Shown here: one piece after another, positions 25,302-42,702 of the stretch
How positions within the stretch are numbered: the stretch's first letter is position 1
Layout: every line of letters starts with the position of its first letter
NCBI GenBank assembly: GCA_029260075.1
Contig: JAJDDY010000028.1
Span: 1 to 64,000 of the forward strand
Reading direction: 5' to 3'
Source of the DNA: Phycisphaerae bacterium
Lineage (GTDB): Bacteria > Planctomycetota > Phycisphaerae > UBA1845
Length of the DNA: 64,000 nt
Notes under the pieces: generated by a model
What the model saw: the letters and a program-made list of their open reading frames with translations, nothing else
Database searches by the model: none
Told to the model about the DNA's origin: nothing
Made by a program: the position numbers and the translations under genes

Positions 25302-25667
25302 AATCGATCCGCGAGACGGCACGGTGCGCGCGACGCAGGGGCCGGCAACGTAGTGACCGATTCGGACAGGATTGTGTCGGGTACGCATCGTCTCGCCGAC
25401 GATAAGAAAACGGCCTCGAGACTTCGATGGGTCGGAGGGAATCGCGTGCGTAAGACTGTCTTGCAGGATAAGCTTAACTTGACGGGCTGATTGGTCTTGG
25501 TACTTCGGTCTTCCCCTGTACGCGGTCGCTGGCCAATGGCGTCGCGCTCGGGCCTATGTTTTTCAATGGAATCGTTCGTTCGCGTGGTGCGGACGAACGA
25601 TTTTCGTTCAGTTTGTCGTTGCGACGTTTTCTTCCGTCTTTGTATAGAGTTACGTGTTAGGAGCCGC
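25302..25667. other. Leader region upstream of the MlaA-fusion gene
   Basis: No gene is seen. The frame of the next gene is open from 25491, but that part is Arg/Ser-rich, lacks a ribosome-binding site and would place the lipoprotein signal 100 residues in. No terminator or repeat was found. Confidence 0.45.
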
Positions 25668-27659
25668 ATGATTGTGACGACCAGCGAAGCCCGTCGTATT
25701 GCTGACGAGCGGCTCGGCTGGCAACCATCGCGACGTGTAGTGCTCGTCAGCAACTCCCGCCTATGCTTCTGCTTACTTTTTGCGATCGTAGCTGTCGGCG
25801 GCTGTTCAACCGCGGTGCAGCGGAACGATTGGAGCGCTTACACTGGTCCCGGTGCAGAACACTTCCGCAAGCAAGAATACAAGCTTCCCTATGTCCCTGA
25901 CCCGCTGGAGCCGACGAATCGGGTCGCTTGGGCCGCGAACGATTTCGTGTTGTTCGGCGTGATTGAACCGGTCACGGCCGTTTGGCGTTTTCTCGTTCCA
26001 CAATGCATCCGGTCACACTTGGTCAATGCGGCCGAGAACATTACCTATCCAGTTCGGGCGGTGAACAACCTCCTGCAAGGGAAATTCGACAAGGCACGCG
26101 ATGAGACACACCGTTTTGTTATCAACACCACGGTCGGCGTGCTGGGGTTGTTCGACCCGGCGGCGGAGTGGGGTATCGCCCCCGCACCGGAGGATCTTGG
26201 CCTGACGTTCGTCCAATGGGGTTGGACGGACAGCCATTATGTTGTGGTTCCCTTCCTCGGTCCAAGCACCGTGCGTGACGCGATCGGCGAGTTCGGAGAC
26301 CTGTTCCTCGACCCCACGACATATTTCTACCCTGCAGGCTGGGTGACACGTTTCGTCGAGGGGAGCGAAGTCATCGGCGGAGCCAAGCACTTTGTGCGAA
26401 CGAACTACGATGCCTATGGGCTCGTACGTCAGGGCTGGACGATCAGCCGCTCGCCCAACGTTGTCGAGTTGGAGGCGGCGGACGGCGCCGGTCCAGCCGC
26501 ACAAACACTTGGCGTCGCGTTGCTCAGGAATCATGATCTCCGTTTCTTCTCACGCGCCCGTTCGCTGGCCGTCGAATTGCAGTCCACAGGTGAAAAGCTT
26601 CCGTACGAGGTTTGGATGCATCCCGGCGTGGCGCCGATCATCTACATCGTGCCCGGAATGGGCGCGCACCGCCGAGCAAGCGAGGTGCTCGCGCTGGCGA
26701 GCATGGCCTATCAAGACGGCTTCTCGGTTGTGACGATCAGCAGCGCATTCAATTTCGAGTTCATGCAGAAGGCTGCCACGGTCCCGACGCCCGGGTTCGC
26801 CCCGGCCGATGCGGGCGACGTACACACGGCGCTGAGCGCCATCTCCCGCGATCTTGAACAACGGTTTCCGAATCGGATTGGTGCGCAGGTTATGATGGGG
26901 CTGTCGCTCGGGGCATTCCATGGGTTGTACATCGCAGCAGGAGCGGCCGGCGCCGACGATTCGCTGATCGACTTCGATCGCTACGTCCTGCTAAACCCCC
27001 CGGTCGCGCTACGCTATGCGGCAGAACAGCTCGACACTTTCTACAATGTGCCGCTGACGTTCCCCGAAGCGCATCGCGATGAGCATGTTCGGGCCATCTT
27101 GAGCAGGATCGCTGGGGACGTCGTAGTCGATTCCAACGCTCCCGCCGAGGGAATACTCCTCTCTGAAGACGACGCCAAGTTCTTGATCGGGCTGAGCTTT
27201 CGCGTCGTCTTGCACGACACCATCTGGTGCAGTCAAGATCGACACGACAGCGGCGTGTTGAAGAGTCCACTCGATCGTTGGCGTCGAGCGCCCGTCTCCG
27301 ACGAAATCTTCGACTTCTCGTTTATCGAATACTTCTATGCGTTCGTGTTGCCCTGGTACACGGGGGACGAGTATTCGATCGACGCTGAGCGAGCAATGTT
27401 CACCCTGCTTGATGCCAGATCATTGACGCGTACGCTTCCGCGCGACGGAACGGTGCGCGTTTTTTCGAGCGAGAATGATTTCCTACTGACCGGTGACGAT
27501 CGACATTGGTTGATCGACACACTTGGTGAGTCGAACGTAACGTTTGAACCAACAGGCGGCCACGCAGGATCACTTCGCAAGCCGGAAGTGCAGCAGAGGA
27601 TCATGAATTCGCTGGAAGATCTGCTTCCGGTTGGTCCGCCAACCAGCACGGACGATTGA
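25668..27659 (+). CDS. MlaA (VacJ)-like lipoprotein fused to an alpha/beta hydrolase domain
   Basis: N-terminal part: outer-membrane lipoprotein of the Mla system, which removes phospholipids from the outer leaflet. Seen as lipobox VAVGGC, VPDPLEPTNRVAWAANDFV, NLLQGKFDKARDETHRFVIN and APAPEDLGLTFVQWGW (about 40-250). C-terminal part (about 290-660): an alpha/beta hydrolase-like region with IIYIVPGMGAH as oxyanion segment, the nucleophile elbow GLSLGAFHG, and a candidate catalytic His in EPTGGHAGSLR. Ordinary MlaA proteins are about 250 residues; this one is 663. AGGAG lies 5 bases before the ATG. No mlaBCDEF genes are adjacent. The fusion suggests coupled extraction and cleavage of lipids, but this is inference. 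Confidence 0.8.
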   Translation: MIVTTSEARRIADERLGWQPSRRVVLVSNSRLCFCLLFAIVAVGGCSTAVQRNDWSAYTGPGAEHFRKQEYKLPYVPDPLEPTNRVAWAANDFVLFGVIEPVTAVWRFLVPQCIRSHLVNAAENITYPVRAVNNLLQGKFDKARDETHRFVINTTVGVLGLFDPAAEWGIAPAPEDLGLTFVQWGWTDSHYVVVPFLGPSTVRDAIGEFGDLFLDPTTYFYPAGWVTRFVEGSEVIGGAKHFVRTNYDAYGLVRQGWTISRSPNVVELEAADGAGPAAQTLGVALLRNHDLRFFSRARSLAVELQSTGEKLPYEVWMHPGVAPIIYIVPGMGAHRRASEVLALASMAYQDGFSVVTISSAFNFEFMQKAATVPTPGFAPADAGDVHTALSAISRDLEQRFPNRIGAQVMMGLSLGAFHGLYIAAGAAGADDSLIDFDRYVLLNPPVALRYAAEQLDTFYNVPLTFPEAHRDEHVRAILSRIAGDVVVDSNAPAEGILLSEDDAKFLIGLSFRVVLHDTIWCSQDRHDSGVLKSPLDRWRRAPVSDEIFDFSFIEYFYAFVLPWYTGDEYSIDAERAMFTLLDARSLTRTLPRDGTVRVFSSENDFLLTGDDRHWLIDTLGESNVTFEPTGGHAGSLRKPEVQQRIMNSLEDLLPVGPPTSTDD

Positions 27660-31049: not shown

Positions 31050-31203
31050 TAGTGCTTTGTCACAGCTAGAATGAAGGGTTTACCGAGCCGCGACCGTGAG
31101 GAAGCGGACGTTTGTAATCCGCTCGTGACAGCTCAAGAAACGCTCCCTCACGGTCGCGGCTCGGATCGGACGAACCCGTCATTTGAGTCGTGATAAGGCA
31201 CTA
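31050..31203. mobile_element. MITE-like palindromic element (TAGTGCT family), left copy
   Basis: A 154-bp imperfect palindrome with ends TAGTGCTTTGTCACAGCTAG and, read inward from the other side, TAGTGCCTTATCACGACTC. The core is GAGCCGCGACCGTGAGGAAG against CTCCCTCACGGTCGCGGCTC. It is the reverse complement of the copy at 32159-32311. Its right-hand terminal TAG (minus strand) is the stop codon of the lipid kinase gene. Confidence 0.8.
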
Positions 31204-32148
31204 TCCGCGCGACTTGGGAAGCATGATGCGAACTGCGCCGGGCAGTGCGGTGATGGCTGCGGGTGTGTGGCCGATTCGCTCTCCGTCGGCCCATAGTTCG
31301 AGCGGGGGGTCGGTTTCGATGGTCAGGCGCTCGGTGCGTATGATTTGCACCTCGGGGGCTTCGACGTGTCGTCCGCGCAAGACACGACCTACCATCGCCA
31401 GCGTGCGCAGGGTTCGCATGTGGTTGATGACGCACAGGTCGAGCAGGCCGTCGGTTGGTGCGGCGCCGGGGACGATGGGGATGGCGCCGCCGTAGGTGGA
31501 TGTGTTGGCGCTCGACGCTAGGAACACCGGGCGTTCGATCGTGCCGAAGTCGCCGCTGATTTTGAGTTGTTGTGGCACGTAGCGGAAGAGCACGCGGAGG
31601 GCGCCGTAGAGATAGGCCATCGTGCCGGTAATGGGCACGCGCATCGTATCGACATAGCTCGAAACGGCCGCGTCGATGCCGATCGTAGCCACCGTGCAGA
31701 AGCATCGATCATTGACGCGACCGAGATCGATGGGCATTGGGGTGCCTTCGGCTAAGACGTCGGCGATGAATTCCGCCTTCCGCGATATGCCCAGCGCCCG
31801 GCCGAAATCGTTGCACCGACCGGAGGGCGCCAGGCCCATTACCGGAACCACGGTGTCCCTGTTTGCGTCGTTGGCGTTTGTGTTCTTAAGCGAAACGAGT
31901 CCGTTGGCGATCTCTTGAATTGTGCCATCGCCGCCGCACGCGACGATGCAATCAGGCTGTGCGTCTTCCGTCTGCCCCTGTTCCATTACCATGGCTTCGG
32001 CGTCGCCGGAGCGCGTGGTTCGACGGACCGTTACGTTGTGCCCGCGATCGCGAAGCTCTTGTGCGACGGCCTTGGCTGTGCGCAGACCGCGTCCACGACC
32101 CGACACCGGGTTGACGACGATCAGGAAGGTTCGGATTTTGTTAGTCAC
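31201..32148 (-). CDS. Diacylglycerol kinase-type lipid kinase (YegS/BmrU-like)
   Basis: Predicted soluble or membrane-associated kinase that phosphorylates diacylglycerol or a related lipid alcohol with ATP. The 315-residue protein has the nucleotide motif VVNPVSGRGRG, the catalytic CGGDGTIQEIANGL, VMGLAPSGRCNDFGRALG and a beta-sandwich C-terminal domain with LLDLCVINHM and ELWADGERIGHTPAAI. Length fits the family. The start codon is GTG with no strong ribosome-binding site. It lies just downstream, on the same strand, of the ether-lipid-like operon and is enclosed by two inverted MITE-like elements: one ends 10 bases before the start codon and the other supplies the TAG stop. Confidence 0.87.
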   Translation of the reverse strand: MTNKIRTFLIVVNPVSGRGRGLRTAKAVAQELRDRGHNVTVRRTTRSGDAEAMVMEQGQTEDAQPDCIVACGGDGTIQEIANGLVSLKNTNANDANRDTVVPVMGLAPSGRCNDFGRALGISRKAEFIADVLAEGTPMPIDLGRVNDRCFCTVATIGIDAAVSSYVDTMRVPITGTMAYLYGALRVLFRYVPQQLKISGDFGTIERPVFLASSANTSTYGGAIPIVPGAAPTDGLLDLCVINHMRTLRTLAMVGRVLRGRHVEAPEVQIIRTERLTIETDPPLELWADGERIGHTPAAITALPGAVRIMLPKSRG

Positions 32149-32450: not shown

Positions 32451-34037
32451 TTACGGAACGTCACAAATCAGGATCGGCGGGCAATGGAAATAGCACACAC
32501 GGGCATCCTTGCCGGCGTAGTCGTGGGCCATGCCGATCGCATGTTTCATTGAGGGGGCAGCGTCGTACCCCAAGCGATCAGTTACCAGCTTGCTCTTGGG
32601 ATTCACCGCGATCACCTTGCCAAGGTGGGCCGCACCGTGGGCCGCCCAATACCACATATAAAACGGATGCACGCCGTGGTAGGCGTAGGAGTGACGGTAC
32701 AAGTGGCGGTACCACTCGCTCTCCGCGTACTTTTTTTCAAATCGCTTACCCAACTCGTGGGGGTCGCGCGTCTGCGGAATCACATGCTCGAAGAAATCGA
32801 AGTATGACGGATGATGCAACAGGTTGAACGAATTCTCGAACGGGTGGACAACGATCATCACGCCACCCTTGCGAATGAACGGGCGGTTCTTGAAGAAGTT
32901 GAAGAAGTATCCCAACGCCAGACAGTGGATGAGTATCGGGTTGAGTGTGGAGTCGACGTTGTACGGGCCGATGGACGGCAGGCCTACGATCGCGATGTCG
33001 TAGTCGTTGGGCACGCTGACGAGCTGCTGACGGTAGGCGTTCACGAGCGTCTTGGGGTGGACTGCGTCGGTATCGCCGGCGTGGACGCCGGTCAGGCCGT
33101 ACGGGGCGGGTAGGGCGCTGTAGGCTTTGCGCCGCAGCGGACCGGGCAGCAGACGCAGCCCGATGCGACTGCCGTGATAATTCAACCGGTCGAGCATGCT
33201 CCAATTGTGCTCGCGTTTCTGAAGAAAGCCGAGAAGATTGTGAAACGTATCGCCGTTGAGCGACGTTTCGATGGTGAAGATCTTCATCTGCTCTTTGACC
33301 AGCGCACCCATGCGGTCGCACGAGCGGTGGAAGTCGCTTCGCTCGGGGTCCATGTAGCTCGACTCGTGCAGCATGGTCTTCGCGTTGTGGTGGTGGCGAA
33401 CGGATTTGTACGTAGCCAATCCGACCGGGACCGACTTGTGCCCTCCGTCCATCGTAGCCAAATTGATATTGACGTAGATCACTAGATCGGACTCGACGGC
33501 GCGACGGTTCAGCTCGACGTCTTCGTCTTCTTCGGTCTTGCCCAAGTGTGATAGGGCGTCGGGGTCTTCCGCATCGTGGTTGTAGAGTCGGTCCGGCCAG
33601 AACCGGTTGAAAATGGCTGATCCGACGAAGTGGCGAAGCTCAGCCGGTGTGCAACGGCGGTGCAGGCAAATCGCGCAGACGAGTTCAATATCTGTGACGC
33701 CGGCTTTGTCCAGCCGTTCAAGCACGACCTCCATAATCGTCTGGCGAATGTCCGGTGCGACCATGCGCGGCAGCGGGAGCGATACGTCGTCGAACGCGAT
33801 GGTCACCTTCATGCCCGGTTTGAGGTGGGCATTCAGCGGCTCGGTGCCTTCGGGGTTGTCGATGGCGTGGATGATGGCCGCCCGTCGATCCACGATCGGT
33901 TCGAGTGGTTCGTTTGGATAGATCACCGTTGTGCCGACCGGCAGGCGGTGGCGTTCATACCCCTCTCCGCAGTGAAAGAGAAAGGGCGGGTCCGCCGCTG
34001 TTACCGTGTGCAAGTTCGATCCGTTTTGCTGCGTCAT
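32451..34037 (-). CDS. LarA-like (lactate racemase N-terminal/DUF2088) protein
   Basis: Distant relative of the nickel-pincer lactate racemase LarA; the reaction here is unknown. The 528-residue protein has FDDVSLPLPR in place of the LarA substrate loop, LVCAICLHRRCTPAELRHFV resembling the His-containing helix, and MDGGHKSVPVG, which keeps the GG-x-K-S order around the Lys that LarA uses to bind its cofactor (alignment from memory). A Tyr/His/Trp-rich C-terminus (SYAYHGVHPFYMWYWAAHG) is unlike LarA. It is last in the four-gene operon: its ATG starts three bases after the dehydrogenase stop codon, so translation is probably coupled. Family membership is fairly secure, racemase activity is not. 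Confidence 0.72.
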   Translation of the reverse strand: MTQQNGSNLHTVTAADPPFLFHCGEGYERHRLPVGTTVIYPNEPLEPIVDRRAAIIHAIDNPEGTEPLNAHLKPGMKVTIAFDDVSLPLPRMVAPDIRQTIMEVVLERLDKAGVTDIELVCAICLHRRCTPAELRHFVGSAIFNRFWPDRLYNHDAEDPDALSHLGKTEEDEDVELNRRAVESDLVIYVNINLATMDGGHKSVPVGLATYKSVRHHHNAKTMLHESSYMDPERSDFHRSCDRMGALVKEQMKIFTIETSLNGDTFHNLLGFLQKREHNWSMLDRLNYHGSRIGLRLLPGPLRRKAYSALPAPYGLTGVHAGDTDAVHPKTLVNAYRQQLVSVPNDYDIAIVGLPSIGPYNVDSTLNPILIHCLALGYFFNFFKNRPFIRKGGVMIVVHPFENSFNLLHHPSYFDFFEHVIPQTRDPHELGKRFEKKYAESEWYRHLYRHSYAYHGVHPFYMWYWAAHGAAHLGKVIAVNPKSKLVTDRLGYDAAPSMKHAIGMAHDYAGKDARVCYFHCPPILICDVP

Positions 34038-34040
34038 GTA

Positions 34041-35288
34041 TTAGTCACCGTGATTCGGGGCAATGATCGTCTTCACAACGCCGCTCGTCCCGGTGTTGAG
34101 GGCGGAGCGTAACGCGGCTTGGTAATCACCAAGCTCGAATGGCGAACCGACCAGAGGCGTGAGCTTCGGTCCGAGCGACTGCATCAGATCGATCGCAATC
34201 TCGAACGTATCACGTACGCCGTCGGGTCGCCGCTCGGGACCGTATGCGTAAGCGGCCCGTACCGTCAACTCTTTGAACCAAAGGGGCGTCCAATCGATCG
34301 CCGCCGGGGCGCCCGGCATACCGACCAAGACGAATGTGCCGCCGCCTCGTGTGAATCGCAGACCGTCGTCGATCGACTGCGGCGTCCCTACGCAATCGAA
34401 AGTAACACCGGCGCCACCGATGACGGCGGGTTTGCCTAGCTCCGGGTCGAGCACTTCGGCGTCGAGCGCCTTGGCCCAAGCTGAAAATCGTGACGCCACC
34501 GAGCGGGGCGATTCGATCACTTCGTTGGCGCCCAGTCGTTTCGCATGCTCGCGTTGGTGATCGTGCCGGGCGATGGCGACGATTTGCGCCGAACACCCCA
34601 GACCGCGTAGGGCGGCGATTGTCAGCAAACCAATCGCACCACAGCCGATGACGAGCACACAATCGGAATCGCCCACCTCAGCGCGGAGGGCGCCGTGGAC
34701 AGCGCAGGCGAACGGCTCGATCAGCACAGCCGCTACGTCGTCGAGGGACTCGGGTATCTTATACAACTGCGACTGATGGGCGACGAACTGCTCGGAGAAT
34801 CCGCCCCCGGTGTCGCGACAGTAACCGGTTTGGATTCCGGAGGAGATGTCCCCACGAAGCACGTTGCGACAAAGGGCGTCGCGACCTTGGCTACAGGCGT
34901 CGCACGGCGGGCTGATTCCTCGCACTTCGCATCCCAGCGCCGGGTGCAGCACGACCCGGTCACCTTCGGCGACGCGGGTCACGTCGCGACCCGTTTCAAT
35001 CACCGTGCCCACGACTTCGTGGCCCATGACAAACGGCATGGACGTGATCGGCGCCAAGTAGGGGCTGCCTTTCGCGCAGATTGTGGCCAAGTCCGAACCG
35101 CAAACTCCGGTGAGGTGTGGGGCGACGCGAACCCATTGCTGCGTGGGCAAGTTCGAGGGCGATATGTCGCGTAGCGCGACGGGCGACACGGCGCCGGTGC
35201 AGAGGCTTCGACCGCGCGGGCCGAGCTTCGAGAGTAATTTGAGCATGCCGTAGCGAGGGATGCTTTTTCGATATTGAAGGGCCTTCAT
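34041..35288 (-). CDS. Zinc-type medium-chain alcohol dehydrogenase
   Basis: Predicted NAD(P)-dependent oxidoreductase interconverting an alcohol and an aldehyde or ketone. The 415-residue protein has the catalytic Zn Cys in HLTGVCGSDLATI, the GHE motif in MPFVMGHEVVGTV, a structural Zn lobe with CDACSQGRDALC, and the Rossmann loop VIGCGAIGLLTIAALRGLG. The N-terminal 45 residues are longer than usual. Its ATG overlaps the HAD stop codon by four bases (ATGA) and the LarA-like gene follows after three bases, so it is part of one operon. In an ether-lipid setting it might reduce a fatty aldehyde or oxidise an alcohol; the substrate is inferred only from context. Confidence 0.85.
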   Translation of the reverse strand: MKALQYRKSIPRYGMLKLLSKLGPRGRSLCTGAVSPVALRDISPSNLPTQQWVRVAPHLTGVCGSDLATICAKGSPYLAPITSMPFVMGHEVVGTVIETGRDVTRVAEGDRVVLHPALGCEVRGISPPCDACSQGRDALCRNVLRGDISSGIQTGYCRDTGGGFSEQFVAHQSQLYKIPESLDDVAAVLIEPFACAVHGALRAEVGDSDCVLVIGCGAIGLLTIAALRGLGCSAQIVAIARHDHQREHAKRLGANEVIESPRSVASRFSAWAKALDAEVLDPELGKPAVIGGAGVTFDCVGTPQSIDDGLRFTRGGGTFVLVGMPGAPAAIDWTPLWFKELTVRAAYAYGPERRPDGVRDTFEIAIDLMQSLGPKLTPLVGSPFELGDYQAALRSALNTGTSGVVKTIIAPNHGD

Positions 35289-36004
35289 GATGTACGCACC
35301 TTGTCGGCGCCGACGACCGGCCAGCGGTGGACCGGCCAGCCGCGTCGACGTGCGACAGCCGCCAGGGATTTGTCAGGGTTGACCGCATGGGGATGGCCGA
35401 CGGTTTCGAGCATGGGAAGATCGGCGATGCTGTCGCCGTAGGCGTGCGATGCTGACAGGTCGATCGAGTGGTCTTGGGCATAGGACCGGATGCGCCGAGC
35501 TTTTTCTTCGGTGCCCACGGGCGGGCCGGTTAGTGATCCGGTGAAACGACCCTGCGATTCGACCAGCGACGGGGCGATCAACTCGTCAACTTGAAGCTCC
35601 GCAGCCAGCGGGGCCATCGTGAAATCGACGGACCCGGTGACCAGGACGATGTGTCGACCGGCGTCGCGATGTTCGGCTACGCAATCCATCGCGTCGGGGA
35701 AGTATCGCGGTCTGATGACATCTTCATGGCAGTCGGCGACGAGGGCTTTGATATCCTCAACGGGGAGACCGGCGTAGCTTCGGTAGAATATGATGTTGAG
35801 TCGACCGCGATCGATACGATCGAGCACGAGGTAGTAGGCGCACTTGATCATGTAGACCGCCTGCCATAGTGATCGCCAGATCGCCGCCATGCGACGCCGC
35901 CGGAAGTACACGTAATAGTGAACGATGGTGGTCCGGGCGATGGTGCCATCCACATCGAAAAACGCCGCCTCGCGTCGACCGGCGGGCTCCTGATCTGTGG
36001 TCAC
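35285..36004 (-). CDS. HAD-superfamily IB phosphatase (SerB/CicA-like)
   Basis: Predicted phosphomonoesterase. The 239-residue protein has motif I AFFDVDGTIARTT (nucleophile and acid Asp), motif II HIVLVTGSVDF, and motif III AYGDSIADLPML, with a helical cap (YYVYFRRRRMAAIWRSLWQA) whose basic and aromatic character could bind a membrane or lipid. Start is a GTG that overlaps the stop codon of the megaenzyme gene by four bases (GTGA), and its own stop overlaps the dehydrogenase start. In related bacterial loci a HAD-IB phosphatase often accompanies an acyl-glycerol-phosphate acyltransferase, so a phosphatidate-like substrate is reasonable but unproven. Confidence 0.85.
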   Translation of the reverse strand: MTTDQEPAGRREAAFFDVDGTIARTTIVHYYVYFRRRRMAAIWRSLWQAVYMIKCAYYLVLDRIDRGRLNIIFYRSYAGLPVEDIKALVADCHEDVIRPRYFPDAMDCVAEHRDAGRHIVLVTGSVDFTMAPLAAELQVDELIAPSLVESQGRFTGSLTGPPVGTEEKARRIRSYAQDHSIDLSASHAYGDSIADLPMLETVGHPHAVNPDKSLAAVARRRGWPVHRWPVVGADKVRTS

Positions 36005-39000
36005 GCTTCGGCCTCGTCGGCGAGCGCCGCTACGGCGTCTTCCACGCGCTTGGCGAGGCCCCTTAGGGCGACGGATCGATCCGAACCCTCATCCGGCTCG
36101 GGCGGTTGAATCGGTTGGCCGAAGGTGACGGTGATTCCGCCGGGTCGAACGAAGCGCTGACCCTTGGGAAGCAGGTCGATGGATCGATGAACATAGACTG
36201 GAACAATGGGTACCTGCCGTTCCATGGCAAGCAAGGCGATGCCGATCTTGAAGGGTTGCAATTCTCCGCTGATCGACCGCGTACCCTCTGGGAACATGAG
36301 CAGCCCGTCGCTGCGGGTTAGGGCTTCGCTACATCGCCGAAGACCCATCAGCCCGTCGGACTTCCTGTCGAACGGGATCGTATCGAACAGGCGGCCGAAG
36401 AGCAGGCGTTTGATCGCCGAGTTGAAGAAATAATCCTCTGCCCCTGCGATCCAAACCCGTCGTTTTCCTCCGACCGCAGTGAGCACGGAAGGCGAATCGA
36501 GGTGTGAAGAGTGGTTCGGCGCGAGGATGAATGAACCGGTCGCGGGGATGTTGCGGCGGTCCACCGCTTGAACACGTACATACGTGTGCATGAACGCAGC
36601 CACACCGCCACGCACCAACCAGCGCAACGGCACGAGGGGCGTGGGGATGGTTCCGTTGACGGGCGCACTGTCGCCGCTGGCGGCGAGCCACTTCGCCGCC
36701 GCACCCGCAACGCGGGGCTTGCCCTTCTTCGGTCTGCGGTCGCCGATGAGCTTGACGAGGTCGCGAACGCGGGCGACGCTCGCAGCCTGCTCGCCGTCGA
36801 TGCGCATGTCGAAGTGCGACTCGATCGAACCAATCAGGTCCATCTTGCCGATGCTGTCGATGCCCAGGTCGAGATGTAGGTGTAGGCTGGAGGCGATCGC
36901 CGATGGTGGTCGTTGCACGGTTTGTGAAAGAATGCGGCGTACGATTTCGAGGTTCGCTGCTTCATAGGGCGGAGCGTTGCCGAACCCCCCGCCGTCATCT
37001 TCAGACGATGTATCATCCGTAAGGGGACTGCCCGTTTCGAGTTGCCCACCGACTACGCATTCGCGAATTACGCCGCGTTTCGCCTTCATGGTAGACGTTT
37101 TGGGCAGCTCCTTGTCCCAAAAATGCAGCGTGGCAATTCGCTGATGAGTCGGTAGGCCTTCCGAAGTCGACGCGACGGCCATGCGAATCTCGCGCTCGAC
37201 CGACGACCGATCCAACTCGGCAGCGGATGACGTATCGAGCACGATGACGGCGTGGACTTTTTCGCCCAATCCGTCTTCGGAGGTCATGCCGAACACGCAC
37301 AGTTCTTTGACGTAGGGTAGATCGCGATAGCGTGCTTCGACGTCGTCGGGGTAGACGTTTTTTCCGGCGCTTGTGACGATCAGGTCGGTGGACCGTCCGG
37401 TGAGAAAAAGATAGCCGTCGCCATCTCGTCGCCCAAGATCTCCGGTTCGAAGCCAACCGTCGACCAGAATCTTGTCGGTCGCTTCCTGATTGTGGAGGTA
37501 TCCGGACATGACGCTTTCGCCGCGCGCCCAGACTTCGCCGATGCCCTCAAGATTGGTGTTTCGGATCTCCAACTCCACGCCGGGTAGCGGTGGACCGACC
37601 GAGCCGGCGCGTGATGCTTGAGATGGACTAACCGTCAGCACCGGCGATGTCTCCGTAAGTCCGTAGCCTTCGTACACCTCGAACCCCATGCGCGAGAAAA
37701 AGTGGTACAGGTCGGGGTCGAGGCGCGACCCGCCACATACGAACTTGCGCAAACCACCGCCGAAGCGCTTGTGTACCGGTCGATACAGGACGCGGCCGAG
37801 ATTGTGTCCGCTCAGCGCGTTCAGCCAGCCTGCGATGCGGAAGACGGCACGCGTCGCCAGCCCTGACGCGGATACTTGTTTTTCGATTGATTCGCGAAAG
37901 AGTTGAAGTAAGCGCGGGACGACGAGCATGGCTGTCGTCCCCGTGGCCTGCATCGCGGTAAGTATTTCCGGGCCCTTCAACTGTTCGACGTTGGTGATCG
38001 TCGCGCCGCACATGAGAGGAACGAGGAATCCGCCGGTGAATTCAAACGCGTGGTACATCGGCAGCACGGAAAGCAGTTGGTCTGCCGGCCCAACGGGATG
38101 AACCCGTGTGAGTGCGGTGGCGTTGGCCAGTAGGTTGTTGTGGGTGAGCTGTACAGCCTTCGGAGAGACCGTCGTGCCCGAGGTGAACAGGATGGAGGCT
38201 ACGGCTTCGCGGTCTACGCTGACCGGGTCCGGAGCGTCGTCGCGCGAGGCGCCCGGGAGCGGAATGAACGGTTCTTCCAAGACAACCAATTCTGCATCGC
38301 CGTCACTTCGGGCCGTTTCGAGAGCGGCGTGCGTGGCGTTGGTCGCGCACATCAACTTCACGTCGGCAAACCGCGCGGCCAGCCAGGCTTCGGCGGGCGG
38401 GGTCTGCGGGTCGAGCGGAACCGCGGTCAATCCGGCGCGCATGGCCGCGAGGTAGGTCAGCCCCCACTCGGGGCAACTTTCGCCGCAGATGGCCACGCGG
38501 TCGCCCGGTTGTAGATTGCGCTCCAAGAATCGGCGCATGATCGTGCCGGTGGCTTGGAGGGCGTCGTCATAGGTGTATCGCGTCCAGCGATTGCCGCGTT
38601 TGATTTGGAGAAACGGTTTTTCTCCGAACTGTTCCGCCGCACGGCGAAAGACATCGAACACGTCACCGCCCGGCGGAAGGGGGGCGGGTTTCGCAAGGGA
38701 CGGATCCCAGGCGGCGGCGGCAAGAATACGCGGAGTGGGTTGTGCGGCGCTGCCCAATACGAACGATCGAAGACCGGGCACATGTCGGTTGATCATGTAG
38801 TCCGGCCAATCGATCCCACCGACGTCGAAGGGGTACGCCGCGCGATCTTCCGGATGCAGCTTGAGCGCGGCCGCTTGCATGGCGTCGTCGACGAAGCGGC
38901 AATCGAGGTGCGTATAGGGCCAGTAGATTTTTCCAAAGTAGAGCAACTGTTCGATCTGACGTGCGATGGCATTCAATCGGCGGAGGCGCCGCCCGGTGAA

Positions 39001-40275
39001 GCCGAAGAACTTGAACACCGACTGAAGACGCGCGACGCGCCGTTGCCGCGACTGCCAGCGCTTCATGAACGACGCTCGATCGACGAGGCGAAGCGACCCG
39101 GTTCGGATCGGTCGTCCGGCGTCGTCGCACATCGGGCGTTTGCGGAACGCGCGGTAGAGTGACAAGCTGATGTCTTTGACCAGAAACGGGTTGCGATCAC
39201 TGGAGGCGCAGTGGTAGACGGAAAGCCCATCGCTCCACGCGTCTCCAACCGGCAGCGTGGCGATCATTGCGTTGGCAACGAGATCGACCGGAATCAGGTC
39301 CAAGGCGACGTCGGGATCGCCGGGGAATTCTTTCAGCTTACCCTTGCCGAAGGCGACGATGATCGGGTCGGCCATGCGCAATCCGTCGATCCATCCGGGA
39401 AGAGGCTCTTCGTAGCTGCTTTCGATGATGGCGGGGCGAAAGATGACCAGCGGGACTTCACCACGATCGCGGATCGTGATCTGCTCGCCGATCCACTTCG
39501 TGAAGGTGTAGGTGTCGGCCCAACCGTGTTGGCGTGCTCGACTCATGCCAGCTTCGATCAGCACGCGGCGACACATTTCCGTATCGGCGCCGAACCGATG
39601 TCGAAGCTCCTTGGCTTCGCCGCGCAGCGATTCCACCAGCCCATCAAGATCGAACGCCCCCGAATCGGCGAGACGCGGCAGCGATTCGCGCGCCGACTCC
39701 GGAGCGGTGAAGTCTTCGATCACCGAGCCCACCCGCGTGCCGCAGACGTAGCAGGTAGACACTTGGAGCATGGGCACGTCGCCGCAGTCTTTGGCGAATT
39801 GGAGCAGGCGGACCGGGCCAAGCGTGTTGAGTTCGATCGCGAGGTCGATCCGCTCGTCGAATGTGACGGTCGCCGCGCTGTTGACCACGAGTGTGATGCG
39901 TTCCGTCAGCGACTTGTAGTCACCGAGCGACATGCCAAGGTGCTCTTCCGTAAGATCACCGGCGTACATGTGGATTTTCTTGTCGCAAAGTCGCTCGAAC
40001 CCACTGCCCAGCGAGGCCCGCAAGCGGTCGAACGCCCGTGATCCGAGCACCTCGCGCACGACACGCTGCTGCGCGGAGGGGCCGTTCGTGCGGGTGCGAA
40101 CCAGAAGGTGAATCCCTGCGAGGGTATCTACACAGCGGAGCAGTTTCTCGACGAAGGCCTTCGCCAGGAAGCCCGTGGTGCCGGTGATAAGAATGTGATG
40201 GCCTGCGAGCCGATCGCGGATTCGTTGCGGATCGCTCCTGCCGGGCGTTGGACTCTTGTTTACTTCAGCACTCAC
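36001..40275 (-). CDS. Four-domain acyl reductase-acyl ligase-ACP-acyltransferase, ElbD-like
   Basis: Multifunctional lipid enzyme, 1424 residues. Domain 1 (about 20-510) is a fatty acyl/thioester reductase: NAD(P) loop ILITGTTGFLAKAFVEKLL and catalytic YTFTK. Domain 2 (about 530-1080) is an AMP-dependent acyl ligase: FTSGTTVSPKAVQLTHNN, YEGYGLTETSPVL, GWLRTGDLGRRDGDG. Domain 3 (about 1110-1180) is an acyl carrier domain with the phosphopantetheine Ser in LGIDSIGKMDLIG. Domain 4 (about 1210-1424) is a PlsC-type acyltransferase with NHSSHLD and FPEGTRS. This order lets one protein activate a fatty acid, load it on the carrier, reduce it, and esterify a glycerol-phosphate-like acceptor. It resembles myxobacterial ElbD, needed for ether lipids, as I recall. 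GTG start; AAGGG 11 bases upstream. First gene of a tightly overlapping operon. Confidence 0.85.
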   Translation of the reverse strand: MSAEVNKSPTPGRSDPQRIRDRLAGHHILITGTTGFLAKAFVEKLLRCVDTLAGIHLLVRTRTNGPSAQQRVVREVLGSRAFDRLRASLGSGFERLCDKKIHMYAGDLTEEHLGMSLGDYKSLTERITLVVNSAATVTFDERIDLAIELNTLGPVRLLQFAKDCGDVPMLQVSTCYVCGTRVGSVIEDFTAPESARESLPRLADSGAFDLDGLVESLRGEAKELRHRFGADTEMCRRVLIEAGMSRARQHGWADTYTFTKWIGEQITIRDRGEVPLVIFRPAIIESSYEEPLPGWIDGLRMADPIIVAFGKGKLKEFPGDPDVALDLIPVDLVANAMIATLPVGDAWSDGLSVYHCASSDRNPFLVKDISLSLYRAFRKRPMCDDAGRPIRTGSLRLVDRASFMKRWQSRQRRVARLQSVFKFFGFTGRRLRRLNAIARQIEQLLYFGKIYWPYTHLDCRFVDDAMQAAALKLHPEDRAAYPFDVGGIDWPDYMINRHVPGLRSFVLGSAAQPTPRILAAAAWDPSLAKPAPLPPGGDVFDVFRRAAEQFGEKPFLQIKRGNRWTRYTYDDALQATGTIMRRFLERNLQPGDRVAICGESCPEWGLTYLAAMRAGLTAVPLDPQTPPAEAWLAARFADVKLMCATNATHAALETARSDGDAELVVLEEPFIPLPGASRDDAPDPVSVDREAVASILFTSGTTVSPKAVQLTHNNLLANATALTRVHPVGPADQLLSVLPMYHAFEFTGGFLVPLMCGATITNVEQLKGPEILTAMQATGTTAMLVVPRLLQLFRESIEKQVSASGLATRAVFRIAGWLNALSGHNLGRVLYRPVHKRFGGGLRKFVCGGSRLDPDLYHFFSRMGFEVYEGYGLTETSPVLTVSPSQASRAGSVGPPLPGVELEIRNTNLEGIGEVWARGESVMSGYLHNQEATDKILVDGWLRTGDLGRRDGDGYLFLTGRSTDLIVTSAGKNVYPDDVEARYRDLPYVKELCVFGMTSEDGLGEKVHAVIVLDTSSAAELDRSSVEREIRMAVASTSEGLPTHQRIATLHFWDKELPKTSTMKAKRGVIRECVVGGQLETGSPLTDDTSSEDDGGGFGNAPPYEAANLEIVRRILSQTVQRPPSAIASSLHLHLDLGIDSIGKMDLIGSIESHFDMRIDGEQAASVARVRDLVKLIGDRRPKKGKPRVAGAAAKWLAASGDSAPVNGTIPTPLVPLRWLVRGGVAAFMHTYVRVQAVDRRNIPATGSFILAPNHSSHLDSPSVLTAVGGKRRVWIAGAEDYFFNSAIKRLLFGRLFDTIPFDRKSDGLMGLRRCSEALTRSDGLLMFPEGTRSISGELQPFKIGIALLAMERQVPIVPVYVHRSIDLLPKGQRFVRPGGITVTFGQPIQPPEPDEGSDRSVALRGLAKRVEDAVAALADEAEA

Positions 40276-40767: not shown

Positions 40768-42702
40768 TCAACCGGACGACGAATCGTCACGCCCTGCGGA
40801 CGCGGGGTCCGCGATGTCACGGAGGGGAACTTCGAAGTCCATGGCTCCGGTGGTTACCACGACCTTCTGTTGTTGCAGGCGGACGCGGACCACTCTCGCT
40901 GATTTTCGTAGTGGTTTGAGAATCACCTGGTCGCCCGATTCGAGGCCATCCACCCATTGCGTCCAGGCGTCGAATTGATCCTGCTGACGAGATAGCTTGG
41001 CGCGATCGCGCTCGAATTGCTCGCGCTGCAAGTGGGCTTCCAGCCTGGCGTCTCGGGCTTCTTTTCGTGCCTCTTCCGCTTCGCGGCGTGTTCGTAGCGT
41101 ACCTGCGATTGCCTCGTTTAGGGCGGCGGAACGCCTGTCGAGAAACCCCTTGGCGAGCTTCACGAGTCGTGCAGCCATACCGAGGCGTTTGGCAATGATC
41201 AGCGCATTGCTGTTGCCGGGTTCGCCCAGACGCATGCGATAGGTCGGGCGCAGTGTTTCGGCGTCGAACTCGACCGAGCCGTTGTCCACGCGTTTGTTGG
41301 TATATGCCTCGGCCTTGAGCGCGGAGAGGTGCGTCGTTACCACCGCCGACGCCCCGAGTTTGCCCAGTTCTGCTAGTATCGCTCGCCCAATGGCGGCTCC
41401 TTCGTCGGGGTCGGTCCCGGCGCCGAGCTCGTCGATGAGTACGAGCGATCGCGATCCGCTGCAACGCAGGATGTTCAGTTGGGTCTGAAGATGCGAGCTG
41501 AACGTGCTGAGCGATTGCTGCAAACTTTGCTCGTCCCCGATGTCCAGGAAAATCTGGCGATATACGGGCAGGCGCGACCCGGCGCCCGCTGGAATGGGGA
41601 TGCCCGATTGCGTCATCAGCGCCATGAGCCCGATCGTCTTGAGGGCAACGGTCTTGCCGCCGGTGTTGGGTCCGGTGATCACCAGAACGTCGAAATCATC
41701 CCCGAGTCGCAGGTCGATGGGCACGACTTTCGCGGCTTCGCCTGTTGTTGCCGCTCGACGATCGAAGAGTTCGAGCAGCACGGGATGTCGCGCGTCGTGA
41801 AGTTCGAGGACGCCGTGTTCGTCGATCTCCGGATTCACGCAGTCATGCTTCCGACCATATACGCACTTCGCGTTGAGCAAGTCCAACACGCCGACCACCG
41901 TCAATGTGGCCATGATCGCCGGTTCGCTGGCGTGGATGCTTTGCGACAGGATTTTCAGGATGCGCGTAATTTCTTTGCTTTCCTCGTCGCGCAGGCGCAC
42001 GATCGTATTGTTGAGCTCGACGGACTCGGCGGGTTCGACGAAGAGCGTCGCCCCCGAGTCGGAACTGCGATGTACGATGCCTTCGATGCGTCCGCGATAT
42101 TCAGATTTGAGCGGCAGCACAAGCCGGTCGTTGTGGAAGGTGGCGCTGGCGTATTGCAACATGCGGGTGAAACTGGGCTGTCGAAGAAGACGATCGACGG
42201 CGACGCGAATGCGCTTGCGGGCTTGGTCCATCGCGCCGCGAACGGACGCCAATTTGGGTGTAGCTTCATCGCAAACGCGACCGCGTGGATCGATCCACGC
42301 GCTGATGGCTTCGCCGATGGGCGTCAGGTCGAAGAGTCGGTCACGTAGAGAATGTAGCGACGGCGCGGTGTCGCCTGCCCGCGCGAACCACGCGCACAGG
42401 TTGCCCGTCGCCCGGAGCGTTTCCCCCACATTCGCAAGTTCTTCCGGCTCGAGCGGCGCCGGCAAGCCAGAGGCTTCGACGAGGCGGCGGACGTCATGAA
42501 CTCCGCCCATCGGTGGCGCCCCGTGCTCTTCAATCAGCAGACGCATGTCGTGAACCTCGGCGAGCCGGTTGCGCACGACGTTCGTCTTGACCGACGGGCG
42601 CATCGATCGTGCGAGCTGCTTGCCCAATTCACAGGCGCAGCAGTTCGCGATCGCCTCGCGAATTTCGCCGAATTCCAGCTTGTCAAAGGTCGCGTCGTTC
42701 AC
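40768..42702 (-). CDS. MutS2-family ATPase lacking the Smr nuclease domain
   Basis: MutS2 proteins act in suppression of recombination or, in Bacillus, in rescue of collided ribosomes. The 644-residue protein has the MutS2 start MNDATFDKLEFGEIREAIA, a lever/core region (about 170-310; SSDSGATLFVEPAESVELNN), Walker A ITGPNTGGKTVALKT, Walker B SLVLIDELGAGTDPDEG and the helical/KOW-like tail GLESGDQVILKPL. Normal MutS2 is about 780 residues and ends in an Smr domain; here the protein stops after the KOW-like part and no Smr motif is present. No frameshift is visible, so the short form looks genuine. Transcribed away from the protease gene, with a shared upstream region. Confidence 0.88.
   Translation of the reverse strand: MNDATFDKLEFGEIREAIANCCACELGKQLARSMRPSVKTNVVRNRLAEVHDMRLLIEEHGAPPMGGVHDVRRLVEASGLPAPLEPEELANVGETLRATGNLCAWFARAGDTAPSLHSLRDRLFDLTPIGEAISAWIDPRGRVCDEATPKLASVRGAMDQARKRIRVAVDRLLRQPSFTRMLQYASATFHNDRLVLPLKSEYRGRIEGIVHRSSDSGATLFVEPAESVELNNTIVRLRDEESKEITRILKILSQSIHASEPAIMATLTVVGVLDLLNAKCVYGRKHDCVNPEIDEHGVLELHDARHPVLLELFDRRAATTGEAAKVVPIDLRLGDDFDVLVITGPNTGGKTVALKTIGLMALMTQSGIPIPAGAGSRLPVYRQIFLDIGDEQSLQQSLSTFSSHLQTQLNILRCSGSRSLVLIDELGAGTDPDEGAAIGRAILAELGKLGASAVVTTHLSALKAEAYTNKRVDNGSVEFDAETLRPTYRMRLGEPGNSNALIIAKRLGMAARLVKLAKGFLDRRSAALNEAIAGTLRTRREAEEARKEARDARLEAHLQREQFERDRAKLSRQQDQFDAWTQWVDGLESGDQVILKPLRKSARVVRVRLQQQKVVVTTGAMDFEVPLRDIADPASAGRDDSSSG

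Follow-up and report, generated by a model that had tools for sequence, protein, structure and literature searches.

A conserved planctomycete operon joins an ElbD-like megaenzyme to a single-histidine LarA homologue and points to a dedicated lipid pathway

What does a homologue of lactate racemase do among genes for lipid synthesis? The question is raised by an operon of a Phycisphaerae bacterium (UBA1845), found in the 64,000-nt stretch of DNA that we analysed and call the window (GCA_029260075.1, contig JAJDDY010000028.1, positions 1-64,000, forward). Here a multidomain megaenzyme resembling ElbD of the Myxococcus xanthus ether-lipid (elb) operon, which we name MEGA, is encoded together with a HAD-IB phosphatase, a Zn-dependent alcohol dehydrogenase (ADH), a LarA homologue (LarAH) of nickel-pincer type and a YegS/DgkB-type lipid kinase (DGK). 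We propose that the operon constitutes a dedicated pathway to a glycerophospholipid derived from a fatty aldehyde or fatty alcohol. The most likely product is an alkyl ether lipid, and the pathway would have an ElbD-like core and LarAH as an integral part. We assign this reading a probability of about 0.55.

A five-gene operon with an ElbD-like core

The genes and the domains of MEGA are placed in the window as follows.

36001..40275, minus strand: ElbD-like megaenzyme MEGA, 1424 aa, comprising FAR (acyl reductase), acyl-AMP ligase, acyl carrier and PlsC acyltransferase (Pfam/NCBIfam, motifs)
38755..40188, minus strand: FAR domain of MEGA, residues 30-507, made of NAD_binding_4 (30-337) and Sterile (432-507) (Pfam 2.9e-62 and 1.3e-8)
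37060..38649, minus strand: acyl-AMP ligase domain of MEGA, residues ~543-1072, made of AMP-binding (543-927; Pfam 1.2e-72) and its C-terminal domain
36745..36945, minus strand: acyl carrier (PP-binding) domain of MEGA, residues 1111-1177 (Pfam 9.1e-7)
36190..36573, minus strand: PlsC-type glycerol-phosphate acyltransferase domain of MEGA, residues 1235-1362 (Pfam 1.4e-20)
35285..36004, minus strand: HAD-IB phosphatase, 239 aa (PF12710 3.1e-40; TIGR01490 157 bits, cut-off 98)
34041..35288, minus strand: Zn-dependent MDR alcohol dehydrogenase, ADH, 415 aa (Pfam ADH_N and ADH_zinc_N)
32451..34037, minus strand: LarAH14/15/16-family nickel-pincer-type enzyme, LarAH, 528 aa (NF052592 780 bits, cut-off 740)
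31201..32148, minus strand: YegS/DgkB-type lipid kinase, DGK, 315 aa (DAGK_cat and YegS_C)

MEGA and HAD overlap by 4 bases, HAD and ADH by another 4, and 3 bases separate ADH from LarAH. An original prediction, made from the DNA letters, had described these four genes with this spacing as an Elb-like operon in a planctomycete-like genome. The list of open reading frames confirms the genes, their coordinates, both overlaps and the gap; the relatives of the host are metagenome-assembled genomes of Phycisphaerae/Planctomycetota, and the domains proposed for a search were all matched (NAD_binding_4, AMP-binding, PP-binding, Acyltransferase and, in the fourth protein, Lar_N, the former DUF2088). 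The unit is nonetheless larger than the predicted four genes: a DGK gene lies 302 bases downstream of LarAH. Among relatives it comes next after LarAH, or after ADH if there is no LarAH, mostly within ~110 bases, and because it adjoins one or the other in nearly all of them, we count it as the fifth gene.

Catalytic motifs are intact in every part of MEGA: GTTGF and YxxxK (YTFTK) in FAR; TSGTT (TSGTTVSPK), YGLTE, TGDL and the A10 lysine (TSTMKAKR) in the AMP ligase; GIDSI in the carrier; HSSHLD (HX4D at 1255) and FPEGTRS (at 1328) in PlsC. The HAD protein keeps DVDGT and GDSIAD, and ADH, nearest to the Tdh/polyol dehydrogenase group (NCBIfam, subthreshold), keeps CGSD and GHE.

Full-length relatives of MEGA, 51-69% identical, are found in most genera of the host's family. 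The gene order MEGA-HAD-ADH-(LarAH)-DGK recurs in nearly all family members examined, and the arrangement is therefore not due to chance. Many relatives carry a stand-alone PlsC gene upstream of MEGA, and the window has none. A promoter scan stayed at chance level, and a terminator scan was uninformative.

LarAH travels with the lipid genes

Within the host family, MEGA and LarAH are present or absent together: 39 of the 51 genomes hold both, 12 neither, and none holds MEGA only or LarAH only (Fisher 6e-12, a p-value made too small by the relatedness of the genomes). The host genome has LarAH once, with no second copy. Two clades of LarAH, ~35% identical, never occur in one genome: clade A is nearly always part of the operon, and clade B lies elsewhere in the genome. 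All 11 clade-B genomes examined have an operon without LarAH (L042, L048-L050, L053, L187-L192; L and G numbers are our handles for loci and genomes). Even a single genus shows the switch, with clade A in the operon of G048 and clade B elsewhere in G049. This looks like functional replacement, shared ancestry explaining part of the pattern.

Across the phylum, 13 of 119 planctomycete genomes have both a full-length MEGA and LarAH (at least ~690 bits), one (G116) has MEGA only, and 105 have neither, including G100 with its weak partial LarAH match. In several of these genomes the two genes lie on different contigs. Sub-pairs are kept as well, namely LarAH-DGK (L161, L170), ADH-LarAH (L163) and MEGA-HAD (L171), and L166 holds the full operon.

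Scanning the LarAH alignment against 84,980 species genomes gave 80 loci, mostly from Actinomycetota, the others from Chloroflexota, Acidobacteriota, Poribacteria, Zixibacteria and other planctomycetes. Among the 48 loci with enough flank, HAD is found within 7 kb in 44, FAR in 43, PlsC in 43 and ADH in 38; these counts are domain-specific, three full megaenzymes being entered under FAR, of which one also adds to PlsC. The Acidithrix locus (L112) has a FAR-HAD fusion, ADH, LarAH and PlsC; that of SAR202 (L085) has HAD, a FAR-PlsC fusion, ADH and LarAH; several Acidimicrobiia and Microthrix loci hold only FAR-HAD, LarAH and PlsC, with LarAH in the middle (domains confirmed in L107). Fusions of HAD with FAR are seen in both Actinomycetota and Acidobacteriota, and the adjacency of ADH and LarAH is conserved across phyla.

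Acidobacteriota were also approached from the FAR side, with four candidates scored per genome. LarAH is present in 20 of 20 genomes with FAR versus 30 of the 129 others, and both ADH and LarAH are near FAR in 9 of 11 loci. The gene beside FAR-HAD is PlsY in 9 of the 11 and PlsC in the other two (PlsY confirmed by Pfam in four, by homology in the remainder). PlsY is a glycerol-3-phosphate acyltransferase and normally a housekeeping phospholipid gene; in L173-L175, L177-L180, L183 and L185 it stands beside FAR-HAD, and most of these loci have ADH and LarAH in the vicinity. This set is a candidate source of the unexplained acidobacterial ether lipids.

The gene set thus travels with LarAH across at least four phyla. 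Besides LarAH itself, its common members are FAR, HAD and a glycerol-phosphate acyltransferase of PlsC or PlsY type, and ADH is usually present too. As PlsC and PlsY point to a glycerol-phosphate acceptor, a glycerophospholipid pathway is suggested.

A plasmid search for MEGA and LarAH returned nothing beyond AMP-ligase/PlsC proteins that match in part (Rubrobacter, Ilyobacter) and LarA proteins of the ordinary kind. One of the former, on Rubrobacter radiotolerans plasmid NZ_CP007515.1 (L157), matches the ligase-carrier-PlsC part of MEGA with 32% identity and has no FAR match.

LarAH keeps the cofactor site and has lost the second catalytic histidine

LarAH scores 780.4 bits against NF052592 (LarAH14/15/16, cut-off 740). 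We placed its residues by aligning it, through a profile, with LarA and the single-His enzyme 9q2u. The ribose-binding aspartate (D84), the first catalytic histidine (H126), the cofactor-linking lysine (K201) and the Ni-binding histidine (H217) are all kept. The equivalent of H174 is N192, and that of R75, which binds carboxylate or phosphate, is L87. These states are constant in 27 of 27 cluster-type sequences in an alignment of 34 from several phyla; the remaining seven, all of clade B, likewise have no histidine at the H174 position. By its sequence, LarAH falls outside the two-base hydroxy-acid racemases of LarA type.

The AlphaFold model of LarAH (pLDDT 92.4) has 9q3k as its best solved match in Foldseek, with a TM score of 0.77. 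The host genome carries LarC and LarE, and among 12 LarAH-bearing genomes from other groups, 11 have LarC. As a proof that the nickel-pincer nucleotide (NPN) is used, LarC is weakened by its presence in genomes without any LarAH. Desguin et al. excluded group 16, one of three groups that NF052592 unites, as lacking NPN residues (PMC7583248); notwithstanding this, the LarAH of the operon has them.

A proposed pathway

From the observed domains, catalytic motifs, operon, cross-phylum linkage, co-occurrence and cofactor-binding residues we infer each reaction of the following route, and its ether product. By analogy with M. xanthus ElbD, MEGA would activate and reduce a fatty acid: its ligase would load the acid onto its own carrier domain, and its FAR domain would reduce the thioester to an aldehyde or alcohol. 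The PlsC domain would acylate a glycerol-phosphate backbone. LarAH would move a hydride at this backbone, in a hidden redox step at C2 by which the reduced chain is attached or a stereocentre set. The Zn-ADH would reduce the resulting keto intermediate, in the place that alkyl-dihydroxyacetone phosphate (alkyl-DHAP) reductase has in animals. HAD would remove a phosphate, and the YegS-type kinase would restore it for phospholipid synthesis.

The LarA-like partner had been predicted to be the least explained component. It is indeed the sole member of the gene set with no assignable lipid step, but it is not the odd part out, being among the most tightly linked. We place the hidden-redox step there, and the analysis suggests that LarAH supplies a missing step of lipid synthesis. 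LarAH might form the ether, set stereochemistry or act on another substrate; the hidden-redox step is possibly ether formation itself. In the most specific version, which we hold to be quite doubtful, LarAH would be a nickel-pincer ether-forming enzyme. It would take the C2-alcohol hydride of (acyl-)glycerol-phosphate and return it after exchange at C1, or deliver it to a hemiacetal with the FAR aldehyde, yielding alkyl-DHAP for reduction by the Zn-ADH.

Alternative explanations

Several points weigh against an ether-lipid pathway in which LarAH is integral. The ether product is a prediction from genes. Some bacteria that have an ElbD homologue have no detected ether lipids (Pontiella, PMC11868695), and FAR and ADH equally fit wax-ester, aldehyde or glycolipid pathways. 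The planctomycete G116 has MEGA without LarAH, and genus g5 has a cluster of FAR, HAD, AMP ligase, PlsC and DGK without LarAH or ADH; such lipid parts can therefore work without LarAH. The presence of LarC in LarAH-free genomes and the kinship behind the small Fisher p-values count on the same side.

The g5 cluster (L058, G004:C4:660000-679000) encodes, beside PlsC and a YegS-type kinase, both a FAR-like protein and a HAD-FAR fusion, together with two AMP ligases, an enoyl-CoA hydratase and a pyruvyl-transferase-like protein. It may be a second lipid pathway taking the place of the MEGA operon. In animals the ether-forming enzyme is alkylglycerone-phosphate synthase (AGPS); we rejected L058 as an AGPS-bearing substitute, there being no AGPS in the cluster.

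The operon could serve a non-ether lipid made from a fatty alcohol or aldehyde, such as a wax-ester-like compound or a long-chain-alcohol glycolipid, with PlsC acylating another phosphorylated acceptor. FAR, acyl ligase and acyltransferase domains alone do not define an ether, the ElbD homologues of bacteria without detected ether lipids agree with such a product, and the operon holds no proven ether-forming gene. AGPS was not found in the host genome (96.9% complete). The only FAD-oxidase_C protein there matches D-lactate dehydrogenase in the PDB with 154 bits versus 58 bits for AGPS, and we rejected it as the ether former: it is a D-lactate/glycolate-dehydrogenase-like Fe-S fusion. However, the replacement of PlsC by PlsY in Acidobacteriota and the YegS-type lipid kinase that follows in planctomycetes both point to glycerophospholipids, and we consider a non-ether product somewhat unlikely.

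A second alternative concerns LarAH alone, which might be an ordinary 2-hydroxy-acid epimerase (of glycerate, a 2-hydroxy fatty acid or a sugar acid) supplying the head group or acyl chain. LarA homologues with reported activity all act on 2-hydroxy acids (PMC11770544), and LarAH keeps the cofactor, nickel and first catalytic histidine residues. LarAH groups 14 and 15 lack H174, no single-His LarAH has been characterised, and one-way epimerases have been proposed as what such enzymes could be (PMC12611868). Yet asparagine and leucine replace the second catalytic histidine and the arginine in all 27 cluster-type sequences, a Frankia LarAH14 had none of the seven 2-hydroxy-acid activities tested (PMC7583248), and the genes linked to LarAH belong to lipid, not carbohydrate, metabolism. 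An epimerase of this kind is unlikely; between the two substrates that the original prediction had offered, the 2-hydroxy acid is weakened by the missing histidine and carboxylate-binding arginine, and a glycerol- or dihydroxyacetone-like intermediate fits better.

LarAH could otherwise invert the glycerol backbone through a hidden ketone, from sn-glycerol-3-phosphate to the sn-glycerol-1-phosphate type or between alkylated equivalents, giving a lipid of unusual stereochemistry. LarA chemistry does invert a secondary alcohol, glycerol phosphates are the substrates of the partner genes, and a single-His enzyme could be one-directional. With glycerol phosphates lacking the carboxylate that activates known substrates, we judge inversion very improbable. 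That LarAH is a hitchhiker using no NPN and taking no part in lipid synthesis, as the exclusion of group 16 (PMC7583248) and two LarAH loci with no adjoining lipid genes (L087, L091) might suggest, is scarcely credible in view of its invariant NPN and Ni residues, of LarC in 11 of the 12 LarAH genomes of other groups, and of a co-occurrence with MEGA that holds even on different contigs.

Implications

Ether-forming enzymes are unassigned in many producers of bacterial ether lipids, including the branched glycerol dialkyl glycerol tetraethers of soil that serve as climate proxies. To our knowledge, the elb cluster is missing from some Acidobacteria, and the mechanism of ElbD is unsolved. The single-His LarA enzymes of groups 14 and 15 have no known substrate. 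The set of FAR, glycerol-phosphate acyltransferase and nickel-pincer enzyme, conserved over at least four phyla, makes both questions testable in culturable hosts such as Kribbella, Nocardioides, Solirubrobacter and Acidithrix. If LarAH were the ether former, Planctomycetota, Acidobacteriota, Actinomycetota and Chloroflexota would possess an oxygen-independent, flavin-free route to ether lipids, and the reaction would be the first of the NPN cofactor on something other than a hydroxy acid.

In the literature we found no assigned reaction for any NF052592 member, no discussion in main texts of the cross-phylum lipid gene context of this family, and no link between lactate racemase and ether lipids; subscription papers and supplements lay outside the search.

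Other genes of the window

At 40768-42702 lies a MutS2 homologue of 644 aa, which matches model positions 2-566 of 790 with no Smr domain seen and seems to be without the usual C-terminal part. A 722-aa open reading frame at 25491-27659 carries the MlaA lipoprotein domain between residues 136 and 320 and has no Pfam match in the remainder; it is far longer than usual MlaA. Between 13100 and 20591, a multihaem cytochrome-like protein is followed by two consecutive FG-GAP proteins, one with ASPIC/UnbV and one with TPR repeats.

Comparison with known systems

MEGA has the same domain order as M. xanthus ElbD (elb operon, MIBiG BGC0000871), a likeness of architecture. The published order in ElbD is FAR, ACS, ACP and acyltransferase; in vitro work showed its ligase and carrier to be active, and an iso-15:0 aldehyde is missing from elbD mutants (PMC9131029). 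Both operons hold a gene for a HAD phosphohydrolase (elbB in elb). The NAD-epimerases ElbA and ElbE are absent here; our operon has a Zn-MDR dehydrogenase, LarAH and a YegS lipid kinase instead. ElbC has no known function, and we found no paper naming its family. The description of the locus as Elb-like therefore holds for the ElbD domain order and the HAD gene and not for the ElbA/ElbE partners. We refrain from classing the locus as an elb operon, because these partners are absent and the likeness to ElbD is one of architecture.

With the AGPS route of eukaryotes and myxobacteria (FAR1, GNPAT, AGPS, alkyl-DHAP reductase) the operon shares FAR, an acyltransferase and a dehydrogenase that possibly corresponds to alkyl-DHAP reductase. 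PlsA/Ger of Clostridium, Thermotoga and Bacillota, which reduces esters to ethers, also yields bacterial alkyl and alkenyl glycerol ethers; it is a different protein family and acts directly on esters.

LarAH itself belongs by score to LarAH14/15/16 (NF052592; PMC7583248), and lacks the H174 equivalent as groups 14 and 15 do. Its nearest solved structures are the single-His LarA enzymes of Blautia wexlerae (9q3j) and Streptococcus plurextorum (9q2u/9q3k), in which His174 is likewise replaced by asparagine and the NPN residues are kept (PMC12611868). Identity to them is ~20%, and R75 is lysine there and leucine here. Their gene context suggested carbohydrate metabolism, whereas that of LarAH is lipid metabolism.

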